A stretch of DNA of 64,000 nucleotides from Immundisolibacter cernigliae (lineage in GTDB: Bacteria; Pseudomonadota; Gammaproteobacteria; Immundisolibacterales; Immundisolibacteraceae). The stretch is from positions 186,001-250,000 of the forward strand of contig NZ_CP014671.1 in assembly GCF_001697225.1 (NCBI RefSeq). Reading direction: 5' to 3'. The first letter of the stretch is position 1, and each line of letters starts with the position of its first letter. Positions 10,596 through 40,173 of the stretch are shown one piece after another. A model generated the notes under the pieces. It was not told the DNA's origin. It did no database searches and saw only the letters and a program-made list of their open reading frames with translations. The position numbers were made by a program, and so were the translations under genes.

Positions 10596-11201
10596 ATGAC
10601 CACTTCTCCTCAGATCGCAATCGTTCACATCGACTCAATTCCGGAGGAGGTCTTCTCCGAGTTTGTGCGAACAATTGCTACCGAACGCCTGAAGCTCGAT
10701 ATTGAGTCACGCGAGAATGGCGAAATTTACGCCGGGTTGGAGTGGCTAATCCCTACGGCGGCCATCATCTACATCGGAAAGTCATACTTCGATGGCTTCT
10801 TGACGGAGATGGGGAAAGATCACTACAACCTATTGAAGGCCGGCTTCATGACACTTCGAGAGAAACTCTTGGGACCCGCCGCGCCGCAAATGGCTGTGGT
10901 ATCGAGCGCAGGGAAGACGTCGCCGAACCAGCCTTACTCTCTTGTCTATTCCATCATGGCAGAGGGTAATGGCAATTTGCGTTTCAAGCTTCTTATTCAG
11001 CGAGAAGTTTCTGAACGCGAGTACGACGAAATTCTTAATGCCTTTCTTGGATTTCTTGAGGCATATCATTCGCATGCGCCAGAGGCCGAATTTGCCGCGA
11101 ATCTGGAAGTACCAAGAGCCTCGGGCGGCATCGTTCTCTTGGCGTTCAATCTGGAAACAAAGACTCTCGAAGCCATCGACCCAATTCCGCGGAAGCCATA
11201 A
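10596..11201 (+). CDS. Hypothetical protein in integron cassette
   Basis: I do not recognise this 201-residue soluble protein. It begins MTTSPQIAIVHIDSIPEEV and has one moderately hydrophobic stretch (LIPTAAIIYIGKSYFDGFL, residues 51-69), mixed alpha/beta content, and no cysteine or obvious catalytic motif. Base composition is visibly less G+C-rich than in the flanking chromosome. The gene sits between two integron recombination cores (10573 and 11268), forming a cassette of about 695 bp with a short leader and its own attC site. That is the classic single-gene cassette layout. Its function is unknown. Confidence 0.75.
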   Translation: MTTSPQIAIVHIDSIPEEVFSEFVRTIATERLKLDIESRENGEIYAGLEWLIPTAAIIYIGKSYFDGFLTEMGKDHYNLLKAGFMTLREKLLGPAAPQMAVVSSAGKTSPNQPYSLVYSIMAEGNGNLRFKLLIQREVSEREYDEILNAFLGFLEAYHSHAPEAEFAANLEVPRASGGIVLLAFNLETKTLEAIDPIPRKP

Positions 11202-11213
11202 ACATGAGGCATA

Positions 11214-11274
11214 GGCCTGCGTTCGAGGCGACCTGCGCGAAAAGCCGCGCAGGCGCCTCAACTCCACGTTAGCT
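11214..11274 (+). repeat. attC recombination site (59-base element)
   Basis: Directly after the cassette gene is an imperfect palindrome with integron attC anatomy. The left arm CGTTCGAGGCG pairs with CGCCTCAACTCCACG with one extrahelical base. The inner arms CCTGCGCG and CGCGCAGG surround a short loop, and the site ends with the core GTTAGCT at 11268-11274. The arrangement closely parallels the aadA attC (CGTTCAAGCCG ... CGGCTTAACTCAAGCGTTAG). The left outer core (expected RYYYAAC) is degenerate (GCCTGCG), so the site may be inactive. Confidence 0.75.
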
Positions 11275-11290
11275 GTCACGAGACAATTAA

Positions 11291-11433
11291 ATGCTAAATC
11301 TCCTGATCGACACTAGCGTGCTTCGCCAAGACCCGCAGAGGAAATCAGCGGCCTTCCAGGTGGTAGGGCGTATCGGCAACGCCCGCGGATTGAAAACTCA
11401 TATACCTGACCTGGTTCGAAGAGAATTCCTTAG
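11291..11433 (+). pseudogene. PIN-domain protein, 5' part (interrupted by IS)
   Basis: The frame starts at ATG 11291, shortly after the attC core, with MLNLLIDTSVLRQDPQRK. This is a PIN-domain start with the first metal-binding Asp in LLIDTSVL, and VRREFL carries the second acidic position. It is cut at codon 48 by an IS5-group element. Removing the IS and one copy of the TTAG duplication joins it in frame to 12658-13663, giving one 382-codon gene. It was therefore the second cassette gene of the relic integron. Confidence 0.75.
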
Positions 11434-12653
11434 GGAAACGCTGATTTATTCCCTCCCGTTGGAGGCATGAGACCTTGGTCCTGAGACAATGTGACCTGGT
11501 CCGCAGCGGTGGTGAGCAGACGTCATGCAAACGAGCTTTTCCGACCTCGAGTACGCCGGCAAGAAGAAGCAGACGCGCCGCGAGCGCTTCCTGGCGCAGC
11601 TGCAGGCGGTGACGCCGTGGGCGCAGCTGGAGGCGGCGCTGGCGCCGTTCTACCCGGCCGGCAAGGGCCCGGGCCGCCCGCCGCTGGGGCTGTCGCGCAT
11701 GCTGCGCATGTACGTGGCGCAGCAGTGCTTTGGGCTGTCGGACGAGGGCATCGAGGACGCCGTGTACGACAGCCACGCCATCCGCTGCTTCATCGGCATC
11801 GACCTGGCCCGCGAGGCGGCGCCGGATGCGACCACGCTGCTGAAGTTCCGCCGCCTGCTGGAAGATCAGGGTCTGAGCCGGGTGATCTTCGAGACGATTC
11901 GCGATCACCTGGCCCGCCAGGGCCTGCTGCTGCGTGAGGGCACCCTCGTGGATGCGACGCTGATCGCCGCCCCGCCGTCGACCAAGAACCGCGACCGGGC
12001 GCGCGATCCGGACATGCATCAGGCCAAGAAGGGGAACCAGTGGCACTTTGGCATGAAGGCGCACATCGGGGTCGACCTGGACTCGGGGCTGGTGCACACG
12101 GTGCTGACCACGCCGGCCAACGTCAACGACGTGACCCAGGCGCACGCCCTGCTGCACGGGCAGGAAACGGACGCGCTGGGCGATGCCGGCTACCAGGGCG
12201 TAGCCAAGCGCCCGGAGAATCGGGACACGCCGGTCACCTGGCACGTGGCGCTGCGCCCGGGCGTGCGCCGGGCCCTGCCCGATGACGCGCTGGGCCGCCT
12301 GCAGGAACGGATCGAACAGGTCAAGGCGAGCCTGCGGGCCAAGGTCGAGCATCCGTTTCACATCATCAAGAACCTGTTCAAGCACCGCAAGGCGCGTTAC
12401 CGGGGGCTGGCCAAGAACCAGGCGCAGCTGTTCACGCTGTTCGGCCTGGCCAACGTGGTGATTGCCGGCTGGCGCCTTCGGGCGCGGCACACCCTCCGTG
12501 CGTCCTGAGGGAGCCCAAAACCGGAATATCCGGCCAGAACACGCACATTGGCCCGATCCACACCCGAAAACGGGCCGTTTTTCCCCAGGGGCGGTCACGC
12601 GTCAGCGCCGTCATGTCCATAGCGCTGGTTTCGGGGGATTGATCAGCGTTTCC
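11434..12653 (+). mobile_element. IS5-family (IS5-group) insertion sequence
   Basis: The 1220-bp element has 12-base terminal inverted repeats GGAAACGCTGAT (left) and ATCAGCGTTTCC (right). It is flanked by a 4-base target duplication TTAG (11430-11433 and 12654-12657), which fits the YTAR target of the IS5 group. It carries one full-length transposase gene and looks structurally complete. Its insertion broke the PIN-domain cassette gene, whose frame is restored exactly when it is removed, so the insertion appears recent relative to decay of that gene. Confidence 0.93.
11525..12508 (+). CDS. IS5-family DDE transposase
   Basis: The 327-residue transposase begins MQTSFSDLEYAGKKKQTRRE, with the IS5 N-terminal domain (LSRMLRMYVAQQCFGLSDEG, FIGIDLAREAAPDATTLLKFR). 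The DDE residues are visible as Asp in GTLVDATLIAAP, Asp in LGDAGYQG and Glu in AKVEHPFHIIK, with the Y-(2)-R-(3)-D-(6)-K like spacing ending RYRGLAKN. The frame is intact and the length is normal for IS5-group enzymes, so the element could be active. Confidence 0.95.
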   Translation: MQTSFSDLEYAGKKKQTRRERFLAQLQAVTPWAQLEAALAPFYPAGKGPGRPPLGLSRMLRMYVAQQCFGLSDEGIEDAVYDSHAIRCFIGIDLAREAAPDATTLLKFRRLLEDQGLSRVIFETIRDHLARQGLLLREGTLVDATLIAAPPSTKNRDRARDPDMHQAKKGNQWHFGMKAHIGVDLDSGLVHTVLTTPANVNDVTQAHALLHGQETDALGDAGYQGVAKRPENRDTPVTWHVALRPGVRRALPDDALGRLQERIEQVKASLRAKVEHPFHIIKNLFKHRKARYRGLAKNQAQLFTLFGLANVVIAGWRLRARHTLRAS

Positions 12654-12657
12654 TTAG

Positions 12658-13663
12658 CTACAGAGATGATGAATATGTCGCTCCTCTAAGAGAAATCGAC
12701 CGGTTGTCGAATAAGATGCTGAAGAAGCCGATGGCTTCAGACCTAAAGGAAACTTTAGAAAAGCAAGCGGCGGCAGGTAAAGGCTCAATTTCTGAAGCGC
12801 AAAGATGGATAGAAGATGAGTTCGCGCAATGGTGTGACCATATTGGCGCTGAAGTCCACACGGTCGCGCCGCATCATGGACAAAGGGTGATAGACGCATA
12901 TTTCTCTGGCTCGCATCCGTTCAAATCACCCAAGAATAGGCAAGACTTTCCAGATGCCTTCATTTTCGAATGTGCACAAGATATTGCGGGCAAGGAGGAG
13001 CATCTTCACGTCGTCGCAGCGGATCGACAGCTACGAGAATCATGTGCATCAATTAACAATATTTCTGTATACGAGTCTCTGGACGACTTTGTGCGGTCAG
13101 CGGCCTGCCAATCTGTCATTAAGGACGCCGACGCGAAGCACCATTTTGCTGAGATCCTAGAACTAATAAAGGCGCGCGCCTCGATCGTAGGCGAAGCGGC
13201 GTCTAAGAAGATATTCGACGCTCTCGTTTGGTACACGTTTCGAGATTCATCAATACCCGATGATAACAATGAGGCCACGATTTCAATGTTGGACGTGCCA
13301 ACCAACGGGGGCCTCATCTGGGACGAGGCGGAGTACTATGGAGATGGCGTAATTTCAATGCCTTTCGAATTTGAAATGACGGTCTTGGCCGATTTCTATA
13401 TTTTCAAATCCGACTGGTACTGCATGCCCGAAGATAAGTCATCGCAAATTAGCATTTCAGAATACGACAATAAGCACTACTTTGAGGCCGAACAGGAGTT
13501 CGAGTTACATGTGCGTGGAACGATTGCAATCAGCTTGGACCTATCAAGGGCGGCGCACGGACCAGAGTTCGTCTCGTCATTGGGGCCGATCCTAGACACT
13601 ATGCAGATTGAGATGTCGGAGATCGAAGAGGTCACCGTGATAACAGACGAGACCGCGCAATAA
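12658..13663 (+). pseudogene. PIN-domain protein, 3' part (interrupted by IS)
   Basis: This is the continuation of the gene that starts at 11291. After excision of the IS, the frame reads FLSYRDDEYVAPLREIDRLSNK and on to FPDAFIFECAQ and HVVAADRQLRES, which look like the third and fourth acidic positions of a PIN nuclease fold. A C-terminal extension of about 200 residues of unknown type follows and ends VTVITDETAQ. An isolated frame could start at TTG 12704 but would lack the N-terminal catalytic Asp. Base composition is low in G+C. No attC follows; a REP element begins 31 bases after the stop. Confidence 0.75.
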
Positions 13664-13694
13664 GCCCAGCGCATTGCGCCGCATTGTGTTTGAG

Positions 13695-13730
13695 CCCGCG
13701 TAGGGCGGAATAGCGCAGCGTATTCCGCCT
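13695..13730. repeat. REP palindrome, left of RAYT
   Basis: The element begins CCCGCGTAGGGCGGAATAG and closes with GCAGCGTATTCCGCC; GGCGGAATA and TATTCCGCC form its stem. The same sequence recurs in opposite orientation at 14307-14344, bracketing the RAYT relic. REP pairs around RAYT genes are the known source arrangement of these repeats. Confidence 0.85.
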
Positions 13731-13766
13731 TCCGGGTTGCCCCGCAGCCACCGTTACACTCCCGCC

Positions 13767-14294
13767 ATGCCGCACTACGTTCGTGCTGACATCCCTGGCG
13801 GAACCTTCTTCTTCACTGTCGCCCTGCTCGAACGCCGCCGCCGGCTGTTGGTCGAGAACATCGGGACGCTGCGCGAAGCGTTTCGCGGCGTCCGGCATCG
13901 GTATCCGTTCACCATCGACGCCATCGTGATCCTCCCGGATCACCTGCACTGCGTCTGGACACTGCCGCCCGGCGATGCCGATTTTTCCACCCGCTGGCGA
14001 CCGATCAAAGCCGCCTTCGCGCGCGGCATCGCGGCTGGGGAACGGCGGTCCGAACGACGCCAGCGCACCGGCGAGCGCGGCATCTGGCGGCGGCGCTTCT
14101 GGGAACACGCGATCCGCGATGCGGCCGACCCGAGTTGACCCGTGGACTCCATCCATCCCAACCCCGTGAAACACGGCCACGCCGACCGGGTTGTGGACTG
14201 GCCGTATTCGTCGTTTCACCGCTACGTCGAGCGGGGTGTTTATCCACCGGATTGGGCCGCCGGATCAGCAGTGCGCGGGGTGAGTTTCGAGTAG
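13767..14294 (+). pseudogene. REP-associated tyrosine transposase (RAYT), inactivated
   Basis: RAYTs are IS200-like HUH nucleases linked to REP repeats. The frame begins MPHYVRADIPGGTFFFTVAL and shows the HUH metal motif in ILPDHLHCVW. The segment GIWRRRFWEHAIRDAAD follows, where an in-frame TGA at 14136-14138 interrupts the gene. The same frame resumes with VDSIHPNPVKHG and DWPYSSFHRY to a TAG at 14294. The usual DYIHYNPVKHG box has lost its tyrosines (DSIHP), so the catalytic Tyr appears gone as well. It is a dead copy between inverted REPs. Confidence 0.85.
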
Positions 14295-14306
14295 CCTTGC
14301 TCTCGG

Positions 14307-15824
<1,518 letters not shown>

Positions 15825-31891: not shown

Positions 31892-33559
31892 GTGAACGTA
31901 AACGAACTCCTTGCAGAAGCGAACCGGCTGGTCACAGGCGGCATGCGCAAGGCCGCCATCGACCTGTTGCTGGAGTACCTGGAAACCGACCCACACTCGT
32001 CAGTGGTGCTAAGTACGCTGGGGAGAGCATATCTCTTGGACCAACAGCTCGAGAAGGCCGTAGTCTACCTCCGAAAATCTCTTGAGGTTAGCCGGAGTGC
32101 TGGCCGCAAGGGATCAGCGGAATCGACGTATCAGCCTGATCACTTCGACGACGAAGACTTCGCCTATATCGAGTCGCAGACAGAACAAACAGACGAGATA
32201 GCGTACTCAATCACCGCCGATGCGGGCGCGCATGATAACAGCGTTCCGCAGCCGCCCTTGTCGATCGACGTTTCCAATGTTTCTGCTGTTCCACATTGCC
32301 ATCCGGGGAAAGATGGTTACACCGCATCCCATGAGGATGCCCACTCGGAAGCGACGACTGGCACAAATAGCGTCCATTCCACAGCTGCCGCGCTTCATGC
32401 TTACATAAAACCTGATGAGACCCTCCCGCTAGACTCTGCTCCTGCTGGCTCCGAAGAGTATGAGTCTGGAGCCGGCGAAGCTACGATCTTCACCGAGCAG
32501 CTCGATGAGACAGATGATAACGATCTCCGGCCGACATCTGTGGACAGATGGCACCAGCGGGAGGAGATTGGTGAGACCGATACTGACGATAGTGATGAAT
32601 TCGCAGATGACCCGGGATATTCGGGTCTTATGTCCCATTCGGATTCTTGGGGCAGAGCAGATCAGGTCTATGAAGGTGAACCCGATGAAAGCGAGTTTTC
32701 CCAAGAGGAAGCCGCTGACGATGAGGATATATTTATAGAACCGGATCGTTCAGGAGCGCTGGGCTCCATGGAGGAAGAACCATATGAATTAAATTGGGAT
32801 GATCTTGCGGATTTGGATGAGTTCAACGAGGAAGCGCAACGCGGGTTTGCTGACCCGCCTGTTGAAGATGATCTGATAACCAGAGAGAAGAGAGCGAGAC
32901 AGATCGCAGCGGAAGTGTTGGCGAGAACCTACTGGGCCATTGAGCATCTTCCGCTCCTCCAGCAGGTATTCGTCGAAAATGGCTGGTCGGCGGCCCGTGT
33001 CGCCGTCGAGCGGGAGATCGAAAATGGCATGCTCCCGGAGGAACTAGCCCTAGCAAGGAGGATCAAGCGCTTCTGGGGATGGAACGATCAGTTCTGGACC
33101 ACATTTCACAAGATAAGAACAAACAGCCCATATGCCCAAGCAGACGCCGCATACAAAAATATGAGCTGGGCGGAGGCGCTTAGAATTATTCGGTCCTTCC
33201 CCAATTTGCCTGACATCGAAGAGATCTATGCATTCATCGAAACAGAGTATGAGAGTTGGTACTACAACGATTCGCTCCGACGCACATTCAAGGCGTTCTT
33301 CAAATATCTGAAATATCGGACGGGATCGATGCGTGGAGCCTTGCCCGGGGATGTCCCATTTTCGTTTAACGTTATGACCGATTCGGAGTTCTCTTTTCTG
33401 CATAGCCTACTCATGCCGGAGAGCCAAACCTTGTCAACTCTTGGAATCAACATGGATAAGGTCTCACGACCAACTGAAGGAAGAATGAAGGTGAACCAGG
33501 AATATTTGGTCCTTGAATCACTGCCTCCTCCACCGAAGAACAAGGATTCAAAGGTATAA
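31892..33559 (+). CDS. TPR-like protein with acidic linker, partner of SNF2-type helicase
   Basis: I do not recognise this 555-residue protein as a named family. Residues 1-70 form TPR-like helices (LLAEANRLVTGGMRKAAIDL, VVLSTLGRAYLLDQQLEKAV). Residues 75-325 are low-complexity and very acidic (Asp/Glu/Ser-rich). Residues 330-545 form an alpha-helical domain with many aromatic residues (RRIKRFWGWNDQFWTTF, YESWYYNDSLRRTFKAFFKY). The start is a GTG with a weak ribosome site. Low G+C and codon use unlike the flanks suggest horizontal transfer. The helicase gene follows after about 140 bases on the same strand. Confidence 0.75.
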   Translation: MNVNELLAEANRLVTGGMRKAAIDLLLEYLETDPHSSVVLSTLGRAYLLDQQLEKAVVYLRKSLEVSRSAGRKGSAESTYQPDHFDDEDFAYIESQTEQTDEIAYSITADAGAHDNSVPQPPLSIDVSNVSAVPHCHPGKDGYTASHEDAHSEATTGTNSVHSTAAALHAYIKPDETLPLDSAPAGSEEYESGAGEATIFTEQLDETDDNDLRPTSVDRWHQREEIGETDTDDSDEFADDPGYSGLMSHSDSWGRADQVYEGEPDESEFSQEEAADDEDIFIEPDRSGALGSMEEEPYELNWDDLADLDEFNEEAQRGFADPPVEDDLITREKRARQIAAEVLARTYWAIEHLPLLQQVFVENGWSAARVAVEREIENGMLPEELALARRIKRFWGWNDQFWTTFHKIRTNSPYAQADAAYKNMSWAEALRIIRSFPNLPDIEEIYAFIETEYESWYYNDSLRRTFKAFFKYLKYRTGSMRGALPGDVPFSFNVMTDSEFSFLHSLLMPESQTLSTLGINMDKVSRPTEGRMKVNQEYLVLESLPPPPKNKDSKV

Positions 33560-33700
33560 GACATCCAGTAACGTCGAAAGCGGCCAACGCGGAGGACTAC
33601 GCATTCACATTTGGAAAGTCAGCCTAGTGACTAGTCGAGTGTTATCCGTCAGATTCAGAAATTTTCATAACGATCAACAGGAATGTGCGGGGTATCGCGA

Positions 33701-36547
33701 ATGTCTCAAAGTAGAGAACGGCTTCTGCCTGTGGGTGGTTGTGTCGTAAGTCGCATAATGCAGGATAACCGTATCCTACGGGGCCGGGTTCAGACTGCGG
33801 TTGACACCCGTTCTAGGATCGAAGTTACGGTCAAGTGGAACGGCAGTAATGGCACGAGCGTTCTTCCTCTGTCCGAAATCCGCAGTGGGTTCTGCCCGTT
33901 CATGGAGGTGCAAGACATTCCCAACTCCCGAACCCGTCAAACGCTCGGTGAAGGTGTCGTCCTCAAGACCCGTACCTTAGGGGGTAGGGATCAGGTGCTG
34001 GTCGATTTTCCCGAGGCTGGACGACAGGCTTGGCTGCCCTATGAGAACCTGCGCCAGATCAAGGGAGTCCGGCATCGATTCATTCTGGGGGACAAGGGGC
34101 CCAAGGACAGTGCGGAGCGGTTCAGGCTGAAGGCCCTCGCCCATGCACTAGAGATGTGGAACGAGAACACTGGGTCGCTCTCCCGTATGGAGATCGACCC
34201 TTTACCCCACCAGATCCACCTCGTACACCACATCCTCGCGTCTGGCAATCTCAACTGGCTAATCGCAGACGATGTTGGTCTCGGCAAGACCATCGAGACC
34301 GGGATGTTGCTTGCCGCCCTCAGACAACGTGGGAGTCTGCAGCGGGTGTTACTCGTAACTCCGGCGGGGCTTACGAAGCAGTGGCAGGAAGAACTTCACA
34401 ACAAGTTCCAAATGGGGGAATTTCAGATCTACGGAGAGGACTTCCATATCAATGAGCCTCGACACTGGAAGATGTATGACTATGTGATCGCTTCCATTGA
34501 TCGGCTCAAGAGTGAGGCGCATCTCCAATCTATTCAACAGGCGGGCACCTGGGATCTGGTGATCTTCGATGAAGCGCACCGTTTGAGCCGCCGTCAGTAC
34601 GGGATGACGTTGGATGCCTCCCAGCGGTTTCAGTTGGCGGCGAGCCTGCGGGGCAGCACGGATGCCATGGTGCTGCTCACCGCCACCCCCCACCAGGGTA
34701 TGCAGGACAAGTTCCAGGCACTTCTGGAACTCCTCCGTCCTGAGCACAAGGACAAGATCATAACCCTGGCGCTTAATCCAGAGATCATTGGTGATATGGT
34801 CTTCCGAAACAACAAGGCCGACGTAACTGATGCGGAGGGTAATTTTATCTTCAAGGGCAAGACGACCAAAGCGCTACGCGTTGCCGTCTCCGAAGCCGCA
34901 ATCGAGTTCGACAGGCGCCTTCAGGATTACCTGAGGCGGGGCTATGCCGCGGGCGCAGCGTTGGGCATAAAAGGCAATGCCATCGGTTTCGTGATGACCA
35001 TCTACCGAAAACTGGCGGCATCGAGTGTCGCAGCTATACATAGCGCGTTAATCAACCGGCGGGCGAGATTGGAAGGTGATGCTAAGAGCGGTTGCACCAT
35101 CACGGATCTGGATGAGCGCGATCAGCGCTTCCTTGGGGAATGGGAGGAGCAGTTGCAGACGGATGCAAAGCAGTTTTTCGAGGGGGAGCTCGAGCTGCTC
35201 GATGAACTCTTGGCGGAAGTGGAACAGCTTCGTATGGATGATCGCAAGCTTGAGCTTTTCATGGAAGCGCTCATCGACAGAGTTCTAGCCAATAATGGGG
35301 ATGAGAAGATCCTGATCTTCACCGAGTACAGAACCACGCAGAGTTACCTCAAGGAGGCGCTCGAAAGGCGGTTTGGAGCAGGTAGTGTCGAACTGATTAA
35401 TGGTTCAATGGCGCATCCCGCCCGACGTGAGTCCATTGCGCGGTTCGAAGAAGGCGCGCAGTTTCTGATCTCCACCGAGGCGGGCGGAGAAGGTATCAAC
35501 TTGCAACGTAAATGCCACATCATGGTCAACTACGACCTGCCATGGAACCCGATGCGCCTCGTCCAGCGTATTGGACGATTGTACCGGTACGGCCAGGATA
35601 AGCCCGTGGTGGTTTTCAATGTGCACTCCCCGGATACGGTGGACGAGCAGATTATGGAACTGATGTATGCGCGCATCGATCAGGTTGTCGATGACTTGGC
35701 GGATGTCAGCGATGAGTACAATGACCAGTTACGCGACGATATTCTTGGCGAGATTGCCGATCTCATGGATGTGAATCAGATTCTTGAGGAGGCGACAGTT
35801 GCCGGCATTCAGCGTACGCAGGCACGCATCGACGACGCGCTGGCCAAGGCCAAGGAATCTGCAATCAAACAACGGGAGCTCTTCGAGCACGCAGCCAGCT
35901 TCGACCCGGACGAAGCGCACCATGAACTGCGGATCAGCCAAGAGCACGCATCCGCCTTAGTTAGGGGCATGTTCCGGGCGTTGAACATCGAGATTGTGGA
36001 GAGCACACACAACGATCATGTTCTGCACATCCGTCTGTCAGAGTCTGTTCAGAAAGAACTCGGCGTCACAAGGAGCCGCTATGAGGTCACGCTGGATCGG
36101 GTACTTGCCACCAGCCGCCCCGGAACACACATGCTGGATCTCGAGTCCTTCCTGATGCAGTACCTGGTGCGTAAAGCCAAGAGTTATGACTTCCTGGGGC
36201 TTAGTGCCGTGATTCGTTCGGACAAAATGGGTGGTAAGACTGTTCTGACCAGCCTACTTCGCTGGCAGAACGATCAGGGGCAGAGACGGCGCCAGGAATT
36301 TACCGCCTATTTGGTGGGCGAGGGTGGTGAAATCAGCATCAATCCGGAAGCGTTCGCGGAGTGGTTGAAGCATCCTGCAGAGACGGGTGACGTCAGCACC
36401 GACCGTGAACAGAATGAAGCATGGTTCACGGCAGTCGAAGCGGCCGCGGACCAGCGGCTGGCCGAGGTTAGCAACCAAAATTTGCACCCCGAGAGCAATC
36501 ACTGGGTGGCCGGAGCCTGGGTAGACCCAATCATTGCTAAATTTTGA
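33701..36547 (+). CDS. SNF2/RapA-type superfamily 2 helicase
   Basis: This 948-residue protein has an N-terminal beta-rich region (about 20-110, KOW/Tudor-like by appearance). A two-lobe SNF2 ATPase follows: Walker A DDVGLGKTIETGM, DEAH box VIFDEAHRLSRRQYG, motif III LLTATPHQG, motif V STEAGGEGINLQ and motif VI QRIGRLYRYGQD. The C-terminal 300 residues hold a coiled coil and an unclassified domain. It resembles HepA/RapA and the DISARM DrmD helicase but has no methylase or DUF1998 neighbours. The start is uncertain: ATG at 33701 has a GGGG site, while 33683 and 33758 are alternatives. With the TPR gene it forms a probable two-gene system of unknown role. Confidence 0.88.
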   Translation: MSQSRERLLPVGGCVVSRIMQDNRILRGRVQTAVDTRSRIEVTVKWNGSNGTSVLPLSEIRSGFCPFMEVQDIPNSRTRQTLGEGVVLKTRTLGGRDQVLVDFPEAGRQAWLPYENLRQIKGVRHRFILGDKGPKDSAERFRLKALAHALEMWNENTGSLSRMEIDPLPHQIHLVHHILASGNLNWLIADDVGLGKTIETGMLLAALRQRGSLQRVLLVTPAGLTKQWQEELHNKFQMGEFQIYGEDFHINEPRHWKMYDYVIASIDRLKSEAHLQSIQQAGTWDLVIFDEAHRLSRRQYGMTLDASQRFQLAASLRGSTDAMVLLTATPHQGMQDKFQALLELLRPEHKDKIITLALNPEIIGDMVFRNNKADVTDAEGNFIFKGKTTKALRVAVSEAAIEFDRRLQDYLRRGYAAGAALGIKGNAIGFVMTIYRKLAASSVAAIHSALINRRARLEGDAKSGCTITDLDERDQRFLGEWEEQLQTDAKQFFEGELELLDELLAEVEQLRMDDRKLELFMEALIDRVLANNGDEKILIFTEYRTTQSYLKEALERRFGAGSVELINGSMAHPARRESIARFEEGAQFLISTEAGGEGINLQRKCHIMVNYDLPWNPMRLVQRIGRLYRYGQDKPVVVFNVHSPDTVDEQIMELMYARIDQVVDDLADVSDEYNDQLRDDILGEIADLMDVNQILEEATVAGIQRTQARIDDALAKAKESAIKQRELFEHAASFDPDEAHHELRISQEHASALVRGMFRALNIEIVESTHNDHVLHIRLSESVQKELGVTRSRYEVTLDRVLATSRPGTHMLDLESFLMQYLVRKAKSYDFLGLSAVIRSDKMGGKTVLTSLLRWQNDQGQRRRQEFTAYLVGEGGEISINPEAFAEWLKHPAETGDVSTDREQNEAWFTAVEAAADQRLAEVSNQNLHPESNHWVAGAWVDPIIAKF

Positions 36548-37145
36548 TTGGTCAGCGAGCTGCGGGTGGGCAAAGCGCAGCGTGTCCACCAAATTCCCCG
36601 CTACGGCTACTTGTTCCCCGCGGCTGAAAGAAGGGGCTCAACCTGGGGAAACCGGGGACAGACCACAGTTTTCCGACATGTGAGCGACAGCTTACTGGAT
36701 TCTGGCTCCGCAGACTTGCGCGGCCGCCCGCCTTCCGAAAAGCGGCGGACACCTGCGCCGCGAAGCCCTACCTGGGCTGGAATCGCCCGGGTAGCGCAGC
36801 TTCGCTGCGCGATGATCGCCCGGCATAGCCGGGCTCCTACGGTTTTCCGAAGGCCCGCGGAATCGGCGCTTACGGGCAGCCGGCTTGGCAACCCGTCGCT
36901 GCGCTGCAGGAAGCGAATGTTCAGCAAGCGTAGCCTGGATGGAGCGCAGCGGAATCCAGGGTGATGAGGCGACCGGTTTTCCCCGTATTGCGCTGCGCTG
37001 CATACGGGCTACCACGCTACCACGCTCAGTCGTTCGGCCCGAGGGCGGGCCTCCCACAGGCCCGGGCTCCGACGGCCCAGGCCATGTAGATACTGTTATC
37101 CGGCCGCCGGATGCAAGGCCGGAAACAGTATCTACACGATGGCAC
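36548..37145. repeat. REP-rich intergenic region
   Basis: About 600 bases without a supported gene are packed with short palindromic repeats. A GCGATGATCGCC...CTCCTAC element at 36809-36840 is identical to 41750-41781. Others include GTAGCCTGGATGGAGCGCAG near 36929, a CCCGTATTGCGCTGCGC palindrome near 36982, and a TTCGGCCCGAGGGCG block at 37033-37057 that recurs inverted at 53981-54005. Short frames here (for example 36548-36964) are spread across the repeats and show no family features. The region separates the helicase island from glpK. Confidence 0.75.
37085..37136. repeat. Long inverted repeat downstream of glpK
   Basis: TGTAGATACTGTT and AACAGTATCTACA form perfect 13-base arms around a 26-base centre that itself contains CCGGCC/GGCCGG. 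The stem lies 9 bases beyond the glpK stop. It could be a transcription terminator hairpin without a T-run or the ends of a tiny MITE. Only one copy occurs in the window. Confidence 0.6.
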
Positions 37146-38633
37146 TCAGGTCTCCCAGCCACGCGTGCGCGACACCGCCTCGCGCCAGCGCGCCAGGCGC
37201 GCGCCCGCCTCGTCGGCGGAAATGGCCGGCTCGTAGGTGCGTTCCGACTGCCAGTAGGCGGCAACCTCGGCCGCCGATCCCCACACGCCGGCGCGGATGC
37301 CGGCCAGATAGGCTGCACCCAGCGCGGTGGTCTCCAGGATGCGCGGCACCACCACCGGGATGCCCAGCAAATCGGCCTGAATCTGCATCAACAGCGCGTT
37401 GACCGCGGCACCGCCGTCGACGCGCATGGCCTCGATGCGCTGCCCGGCATCGGCACGCATGGCGTCGAGCAGATCGGCCGACTGGAAGGCGATGGCTTCC
37501 AGGGCGGCGCGGGCGATGTGCGCACGGTTGGCGCCGCGGGTGAGGCCGACCATCGCGCCACGCGCGCTGGCATCCCAGTACGGCGAGCCCAGCCCGGCGA
37601 AGGCCGGCACCAGGTACACGCCGGCGGTATCGGGCACGGAAGCCGCCAGCGTCTCCACCTCGGCCGAGCTGCGGATGATGCCCAGCCCGTCGCGCAGCCA
37701 CTGCACCACGGCGCCGGCCACGAAGATGCTGCCCTCGAGCGCGTAGCCGGGGACATCACCGGCGTGCGCCGTGGCGGTGGCCAGCAGACCGCTGGGCGAG
37801 GCCACCGGCGCATCGCCGGTGTGGATGAGCATGAAGCAACCGGTGCCGTAGGTGTTCTTGACCATGCCGGGCACCGTGCAGGCCTGCCCGAACAAGGCCG
37901 CCTGCTGATCGCCCGCCACGCCGCCGATACGCACCGGCGCGCCCAGCAGATCGGCCTGCGTGGTGCCGAAATCGTCGGCCGAGGCCAGCACCTCGGGCAA
38001 CAGGGCGCGCGGCACGCCCAGGTGGCCCAGCAGCTCGTCGTCCCAGCGGCGGTGGTGGATGTCGAACAGCAGCGTGCGCGAGGCATTGGTCACGTCGGTG
38101 ACGTGGGCGCGCCCCCCGGTCAGGCGCCAGATGAGGAAGCTGTCGACGGTGCCGAAGGCCAGTTCGCCGCGCTCGGCGCGTTCCCGCGCGCCGGGCACGT
38201 TGTCCAGCAGCCAGGCCAGCTTGGTGCCGGAAAAGTACGGGTCCAGCAGCAGACCGGTGCGCTGGCGAAACAGCGTCTCCAGGCCCTGCGCCTTGAGCGC
38301 CTCGCAGGCGGCGGCGGTGCGCCGGTCCTGCCAGACGATGGCGTTGGCCACCGGGCGACCGGTGGCGCGCTCCCACAGCACCACCGTCTCACGCTGGTTG
38401 GCGATGCCCAGCGCCAGCACCTGATCGGCGCGGACATCGGCCTTGGCCAGCACCTCGCGCGCGGTGTCCAGCTGCGACTGCCAGATCAGCTCGGGGTCGT
38501 GTTCCACCCAGCCCGGGCGCGGATAGTGCTGAGTGAATTCCTCTTGGGCGATGGCCACCAGGACGCCCTGGGTGTCGAACAGCGCCGCCCGCGAACTGGT
38601 CGTGCCCTGGTCCAGGGCCAACAGGTATGCCAT
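37146..38633 (-). CDS. glpK: Glycerol kinase
   Basis: GlpK phosphorylates glycerol to glycerol-3-phosphate. The 495-residue FGGY kinase starts [20 protein letters not shown]. It carries the FGGY signatures ([13 protein letters not shown] region and GRKVS-like [16 protein letters not shown]), [10 protein letters not shown] near residue 100, and [20 protein letters not shown] with the nucleotide site. A GAGG site precedes the ATG; the longer frame is not conserved. It lies 22 bases after glpD and is last in a glcF-like/glpD/glpK series. No glpF or glpR is nearby. Confidence 0.97.
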
Positions 38634-38655
38634 TGCGTGCCTCCTCAGGTTCTCG

Positions 38656-40173
38656 TCAAACGGTTTTCGCGGCCTGCACGGCACCCACACCAACGCCGGC
38701 GAGCCAAACATCGAGCCGCGCCGCAGCATCCGGCGGCGCGCTCAGGCCCAGCCGGGTACGCCGCCACAGGATGTCCTCGGCGGTGCGGGCGAACTCCTCG
38801 CGCACCAGGTAATTCAGCTCGCAGGGATACAGGTCCGCGACCACCGGCGCGCCCAGCGCCGCAGCGCTGTCGATGCCGTCCAGGATTCGCAGCGCCCGTG
38901 TGCCGTAGCTGCCGGCCAGGCGCCGGGCCAGCGGCGGCGCCAGCCACGGCCGCTCGCGGCGCAGCCGGGCCTCGAACGCCGCCGGATCACCGTCCTCCAG
39001 GTCGCCGCCGGGCAGGGGCACGCCGGCGGTCCATGCCGCCCCGCCGCCCAGCAGCGGCGCGATGTGATCCACCGCCTGCTCCGCCAGCTTGCGGTAGGTG
39101 GTGAGCTTGCCGCCGAACACGGACAGCACCGCCGCGCCGGCCTGATCCAGATCCAGCCGGTAATCGCGCGTCACGCGGGCGGCGTTGCTGGTCGCGTCAT
39201 CCAGCAGCGGGCGGACGCCGGCAAAGGTCCAGACCACCTGCGCCGGCGTCACCGTGCGGGCCAGATAGCGGTTCACCGTGCCGCACAGGTAATCGATTTC
39301 CTCGGCCGAGATGGCCGCCTGTGCCGGATCGCCGTGATAGTCCACGTCGGTGGTGCCGATCAGGGTGAAGCGCTCCTCGAACGGCAGCGCGAACACCACC
39401 CGCCCGTCGGGGTTCTGGAACAGGTAGCCGAAGTCGTGATCGAACAGCCGCGGCAGCACGATGTGGCTGCCCTTGACCAGGCGCAGCGTGTGCCGGGCGG
39501 CGACGCCCAAGGGGCCGCCGAGCAGCGTGCCGACCCACGGCCCGGCGGCGTTGACCACCAGGCGCGCCTGCACGCTGCACGCGGCGCCATCGGCGGCGCG
39601 CAGGTCCAGCGACCAGGCGTCCGCCGTGCGACGGGCGCCGATCAGCGCCGTGCGGGTGGCGATGTGCGCCCCGCGCTCGCGCGCATCGACGGCGTTCAGC
39701 ACCACCAACCGCGCGTCCTGCACCCAGGCATCCGAATAGACGAAACCGCGCGAGAACGCCGGCCTGAGTCCGGCGCCGGCCGGATGACGGCGAAAATCCA
39801 CGCCGCCCGATCCGGGCAGACGCGCGCTACGCGCCAGGTGGTCGTACAGGAAAAGGCCCAGGCGGATCAGCCAGGCCGGTCGCTGGCCGGCGTCGTGCGG
39901 CATCACCACCCGCAGCGGACGGATGATGTGCGGCGCGGCCGCCAGCAGCACCTCGCGCTCCTGCAGGGCCTTGCGTACCAGGCCGAACTCGTAATGCTCC
40001 AGGTAGCGCAGCCCGCCGTGGATCATCTTGCTGCTGGCGCTCGAGGTATGCGCGGCCAGGTCGTGCTGTTCCACCAGCAGCACCGACAGACCGCGGCCGG
40101 CAGCATCACGGGCAATGCCGGCGCCGTTGATGCCGCCGCCGATCACCGCCAGGTCGAAGGTGGATTCCGTCAT
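38656..40173 (-). CDS. glpD: Glycerol-3-phosphate dehydrogenase (FAD, aerobic)
   Basis: GlpD oxidises glycerol-3-phosphate to dihydroxyacetone phosphate at the membrane and passes electrons to quinone. The 505-residue protein has the FAD dinucleotide motif [20 protein letters not shown] and the conserved [20 protein letters not shown]. Also present are GVRPLLDD and [19 protein letters not shown], and the C-terminal DAO_C domain. The ATG at 40173 fits the first FAD strand. It sits between the glcF-like gene and glpK, and the cotranscription makes a minimal glycerol catabolic unit. Confidence 0.96.

Follow-up and report, generated by a model that had tools for sequence, protein, structure and literature searches.

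A RapA-type helicase and its partner protein as a probable two-gene phage-defence module in Immundisolibacter cernigliae

Two adjacent genes of Immundisolibacter cernigliae, one for a partner protein and one for a RapA-like SNF2 helicase, probably make up an undescribed two-gene phage-defence module, since they are found together across unrelated bacteria and tend to adjoin known phage-defence genes. Some role of the pair in defence against mobile DNA is likely; for the fuller reading, a stand-alone mobile module that acts against foreign DNA in the general way set out below, we put the probability at about one half. The observations beneath this reading are an operon conserved in searches from either gene, a single helicase clade, intact motor residues, a modular partner, an enrichment of defence genes nearby, and a patchy distribution. 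The location of the pair in defence islands is statistical, not functional, support for a defence role. In the window, i.e., the whole 64,000-nucleotide stretch of DNA that was analysed, the genes are arranged as follows:

31892-33559, plus strand: partner gene, an ORF of 555 amino acids with a GTG start
33560-33682, plus strand: intergenic spacer from partner to helicase, 123 bp in the window (in relatives often a -4 bp overlap)
33683-36547, plus strand: RapA-like SNF2 helicase gene, an ORF of 954 amino acids from the first ATG

Both ORFs lie where an earlier note, made from the letters of the DNA, had placed them; the helicase length of 948 amino acids given there matches the next ATG, at 33701, but not the first. 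The operon of the window consists of these two genes only. It is flanked upstream by a VOC/Rieske (ring-cleavage) catabolic operon and downstream by glpK (minus strand, 37146-38729). The G+C content at 32-36 kb is 50-57%, compared to 64-72% on both sides, which bears out the earlier description of a low-G+C insert between the catabolic operon and glpK. No defence-gene neighbours of the window copy were seen in the stretch examined. In G002, other genes and not the pair come after the upstream operon (~84-88% DNA identity); synteny breaks there, but the comparison gave no exact insertion ends, and the site was rejected as a precise empty site. The REP-rich stretch of the earlier note is present after the helicase (a REP-like dispersed repeat at 36785-36885), but with 47 matches in its own genome and ~50 in a same-genus genome it is an ordinary dispersed element, and thus says nothing specific about the pair. 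A second low-G+C patch of the window (10596-15504) contains two transposase-like ORFs (11525-12508 and 14335-15504) that surround two ORFs without assignment (10596-11201 and 12704-13663).

The linkage of the two genes was followed in both directions. A search of genome contigs with a helicase-only alignment gave 80 loci, 55 with closer relatives of the helicase (37-78% identity) and 25 with distant ones. Using a profile of the partner C-terminal domain (CTD) grown from five sequences, we found this domain in the gene just upstream, on the same strand, for all 55 closer helicases except that of L025, where the contig starts 185 bp before the helicase. The order was always partner then helicase, and the gap was commonly -4 or -8 bp (a 4-8 bp overlap); the gap computed at L058 looks large because the helicase frame is split into two pieces. 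None of the 25 distant helicases, of which the typed ones are HmaA, had the partner CTD upstream. In the reverse test, the partner domain was detected in 6 of about 767 sampled genomes, drawn from the class and phylum, and the helicase adjoined it in 6/6; one of the six is the genome of the window, and G016 and G548, at least, repeat loci of the forward scan. Seeding of the CTD profile from pairs could make the forward test favour partners that stand beside helicases; the 0/25 outgroup result and the 6/6 reverse test argue against such a bias. Thus, within the pair clade, partner homologues lie directly upstream of the helicase at all loci but the contig-edge case, and the earlier reading of an undescribed two-gene system, in which the helicase has a dedicated partner, is supported. 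Absence of such linkage in other genomes, which the note had named as grounds for dropping its reading, was not observed.

The pair was present in ~0.8% of the sampled genomes and absent from the sampled same-genus genomes, i.e., its distribution is rare and patchy. Bacteria that carry it belong to the Gamma-, Beta-, and Alphaproteobacteria, Thermodesulfobacteriota, Myxococcota, Bacteroidota, and Deinococcota. Partner and helicase stand side by side on a contig of G016 and on the Nitrosococcus halophilus plasmid pNHAL01. In Deinococcus, two plasmids carry, ahead of the helicase gene, a gene for a ~1300-aa protein, the last 150 residues of which are the partner CTD; in the protein at L012 (6018-9920, 1300 aa), this CTD is preceded by a long N-terminal part that is coiled-coil-like and proline-rich. 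A scan of genome contigs with a single partner sequence found nothing, probably due to fast divergence of the partner. Searches of viral contigs returned only weak, unrelated helicases, and phage records gave one partial 27% match; there is thus no sign of phages carrying the pair.

The helicase contains the Pfam domains SNF2-rel_dom and Helicase_C. Its AF2 model has a pLDDT of 83, and the best structural matches obtained with Foldseek were to E. coli RapA, over the full length of the protein. The following parts were delimited:

33725-34072, plus strand: two N-terminal beta-barrel regions in a Tudor-like position (residues 15-130; AF2 model)
34193-35782, plus strand: SF2/SNF2 ATPase core (residues 171-700; conserved motifs)
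35930-36532, plus strand: RapA-type C-terminal alpha+beta region (residues 750-950; AF2 model, Foldseek matches to RapA, conserved columns)

In the model, the strands of the barrel region (residues 21-62 and 75-125) occupy the position of the RapA Tudor pair, and the tandem N-terminal barrels, the SNF2 motor, and the two C-terminal alpha+beta domains of RapA are all present, in the same domain order. Residues of the Walker A (GLGKT), DEAH, TPHQG, and QRIGR motifs were invariant or nearly so among 37-38 relatives; judged by these residues, the motor motifs are intact. The conserved C-terminal columns, read by eye, contained no nuclease signature of the D/E-x-K type.

RapA, the RNA polymerase recycling factor of E. 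coli, is a transcription factor, and since the helicase has the same fold, an RNA-polymerase-directed role is possible. The pair could accordingly be a RapA-like RNA polymerase recycling system, or a DNA-repair remodeller, with a regulatory subunit, which is horizontally mobile by chance. The full-length structural match speaks for this, and AddAB-like (L064, by Pfam) and SbcD-like genes (L045, L066, and L068, by sequence) near some copies point the same way. However, identity to RapA in the structural alignment is 16-17%, the helicase reaches 180 bits where the RapA equivalog model of NCBIfam has its cut-off at 576 bits, and an operon partner together with a patchy distribution is unlike a housekeeping gene. 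A match to a housekeeping RapA, which the earlier note had named as evidence against its own reading, was therefore not what we found. Given also the presence in so few sampled genomes, the absence from those of the same genus, and the enrichment of defence genes described below, we hold the non-defence explanation to be quite improbable.

Among defence models, the best PADLOC match of the helicase was to BrxHI/BrxHII (326 bits, residues 169-925), followed by 277 bits on the HmaA model. BrxHII, the helicase of type 3 BREX, consists of Tudor, SNF2, degenerate REase, and C-terminal alpha+beta domains, in parallel to RapA (PMC12839542). The 326 bits do not exceed what true HmaA obtains: on the BrxHI/BrxHII model HmaA reaches 310-330 bits, compared to 2162 bits on the HmaA model. 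These cross-family scores imply that at the HMM level the helicase behaves as a family of its own, with no BrxHII sequence included in the tree described next. That tree, calculated quickly by maximum likelihood, comprised 39 helicases; the 27 pair helicases sampled all fell on one side of a branch with an SH-aLRT of 100, apart from HmaA (its own group, SH-aLRT 98), DrmD-like helicases, the helicase of a Klebsiella DUF499 system, and RapA. The nearest sampled outgroup was the DUF499-type helicase of a Klebsiella plasmid; the RapA and Klebsiella branches are long, and only the unity of the pair clade was therefore used.

Gene content separates the pair from the known systems as well. A BREX core of the BrxC, PglZ, and PglX type was not recognised beside the window pair (ORFs at 26-42 kb) and does not recur in relatives, a few of which have single BREX proteins nearby; in turn, descriptions of BREX include no such partner. 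The Hma and DUF499 BREX-related systems use SNF2 defence helicases of the same superfamily, but these form a separate clade, HmaA exceeds the pair helicase in length, and the partner is missing beside the 25 distant helicases mentioned above; the pair has no obligatory DUF499 ATPase or methylase, and no DUF499-type gene recurs among its neighbours. DrmD of DISARM and ArmA of ARMADA are likewise RapA/BrxHII-like defence helicases (for ArmA, PMC12458937). The helicase of the pair, however, is below the DrmD cut-offs (315 of 610 bits and 183 of 950 bits), and neither YprA/DUF1998 nor PglX is required by the pair. The most fitting description of the pair is a defence helicase of the RapA/BrxHII type joined to a new partner that is dedicated to it.

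The partner is built of a short N-terminal domain, a long linker, and the CTD:

31892-32107, plus strand: N-terminal TPR-like domain (residues 1-72; AF2 pLDDT >93 to residue 70)
32204-32791, plus strand: acidic linker, predicted to be disordered (residues 105-300; pLDDT mostly <50)
32807-33451, plus strand: helical C-terminal domain (residues 306-520; AF2 model)
32876-33319, plus strand: conserved core of the CTD, shared by partners (residues 329-476)

The N-terminal TPR noted earlier is real, with TPR structures as best matches (Z ~12.5 over ~70 residues), but it is very short, at about two hairpins. The TPR family was found in 21/58 partners; as most relatives lack it, the partner is not defined by its TPR. 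Other partners begin with a zinc ribbon (L038, L048), a coiled coil (Deinococcus, and L044; read from the sequence), or no recognisable fold, i.e., the N-terminus is swappable among TPR, zinc ribbon, coiled coil, and disorder. The acidic linker was also described correctly: counted before the CTD, it contains 31% D/E and 4% K/R. An acidic linker is present in all relatives (net charge of -9 to -22 in the most acidic 40 residues) except the Deinococcus pair, where the corresponding part is proline-rich and not acidic. The CTD, helical and mostly with pLDDT >90 in residues 331-480, is the only part common to all partners and contains conserved tryptophans; the earlier note had called it novel, and it has no Pfam match. 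Beyond weak TPR matches, no model for the partner was found in PADLOC, Pfam, NCBIfam, or PHROGs. A fold search with the model of the whole partner returned TPR alone. Identity to the closest relative was highest in the motor core (83%), lower in the TPR (71%) and the partner CTD (65%), and lowest in the linker (21%).

A helicase with a dedicated non-helicase partner recalls Hachiman, whose two genes, HamAB, encode a helicase that restrains its partner (PMC12278908). By analogy, the pair could be a two-part abortive system in which sensing falls to the helicase, which then unleashes the partner as effector; the two-gene size and logic fit, and so does the faster evolution of the partner compared to the motor. 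HamA, however, is a DUF1837 nuclease and HamB a helicase of a different type. The partner gave no Pfam match to DUF1837 at E up to 1, nor to any nuclease at E up to 1 for the window copy or 0.01 for relatives; its all-helical, tryptophan-containing CTD has no recognisable catalytic set, and the N-termini of many relatives' partners have no recognised fold. No nuclease or other killing activity was identified in either the partner or the helicase. A Hachiman-type arrangement is thus unlikely.

Association with defence islands, which the earlier note had suggested, is supported by the genes next to the pair in relatives, and location beside known defence genes is recurrent. The neighbours include type I and type III restriction-modification genes (HsdM/HsdS/HsdR, Mod), Z1, McrC-like genes, and WYL regulators, as well as AriA, AbiLi, PDC-S02, BrxL, BrxA, BrxB, and AddAB-like genes. 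The BrxR family of WYL regulators has been published as a marker of defence islands (PMC9122601). A full-length HmaA (2162 bits) lies beside the pair at L050, BrxL (1000 bits) at L038, Dsr1 and a restriction endonuclease near the copy on Nitrosococcus pNHAL01, and DrmD-like genes near the pair in several loci. The earlier remark that no methylase or nuclease is found nearby is true at the window copy, in the stretch examined, but relatives often stand beside methylase or restriction genes. Quantification with PF02384 (N6_Mtase) gave 96 matches in 43 pair-bearing genomes (~197 Mb), while the 0.819 Mb of pair loci contained at least 6 (L028, L030, L040 twice, L061, and L068) against ~0.4 expected, a ~15-fold enrichment over the genome background (Poisson ~4e-6). 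Contig coordinates were mapped to loci by hand, for L068 and L061 by matching positions, not contig names; without these two, 4 matches are left and the enrichment is still ~10-fold.

Several further neighbours were recorded. At L064 (11885-17784), AddB-like and AddA-like helicase-nuclease genes lie directly downstream of the pair, and SbcD-like genes were seen near it in the three loci named above. L017 (1174-6567) carries a four-gene SMC operon (413, 185, 936, and 277 aa) with a Wadjet/MksBEF-like layout, next to the pair and a WYL regulator. The matches in PADLOC were weak and to LmuB only, and a Wadjet assignment was not confirmed; the operon may be a condensin-type system without an existing model. 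At L123 (11440-11940), a 166-aa gene stands directly upstream of the SNF2 helicase of a Klebsiella plasmid system that is of the DUF499 type and includes SIR2; the gene showed no relationship with the partner domain and was discarded as a short partner.

Restriction neighbours raise another explanation: the pair could be an accessory of restriction-modification or BREX-like systems that unwinds or clears DNA for its neighbour, with no defence of its own. It abuts a type III Mod gene in L018 (46 bp), or Z1 and then Mod in L022, L024, and L057, and follows type I genes in L028, L030, and L061, as an accessory might. Yet no companion gene is common to more than 8 of about 59 loci, the companions are unrelated to one another (type I, type III, BREX, Hma, AddAB-like, SbcD-like), and the window copy, among others, has none nearby. 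An accessory function is therefore rather unlikely, and, with no constant companion, the minimal unit is the pair itself.

For the pair as a self-contained defence module, we suggest the following mode of action. The helicase would be a dsDNA translocase of RapA/BrxHII architecture, with N-terminal barrels, an SNF2 motor, and degenerate C-terminal domains, and the partner would be its dedicated regulator. The partner CTD may dock on the helicase, so placing the acidic disordered tether on the DNA-binding surface of the motor, where it would act like a DNA mimic and hold the motor idle. The exchangeable N-terminal sensor of the partner (TPR in the window copy) would detect invader DNA or an infection cue. 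Sensing would release the tether and let the motor load on its presumed target, foreign DNA; the released motor would translocate and strip proteins, and might thereby block transcription, replication, or packaging of the foreign DNA. No separate nuclease would be needed. In its specifics, this tether-and-sensor mechanism is tentative. Equally speculative is the general principle that it would embody: a new class of immunity, nuclease-free, by a RapA-type motor that is kept in check by a DNA-mimicking acidic tether, with interchangeable sensor heads on a constant docking domain.

No description of the partner or the pair was found in the open-access literature to August 2026; an earlier naming in subscription papers or newer defence catalogues is possible. 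To our knowledge, helicases of the SNF2/RapA-like type are met repeatedly in BREX, DISARM, ARMADA, Hma, and Zorya, in each case accompanied by other components, and for this reason their own contribution is hard to tell. If our reading is true, the pair adds a family that PADLOC 2.0.0 does not contain. With two genes and a dedicated regulator, it would then offer the simplest setting in which to study the recognition of foreign DNA by such a motor, and to see if the motor can defend without a nuclease.
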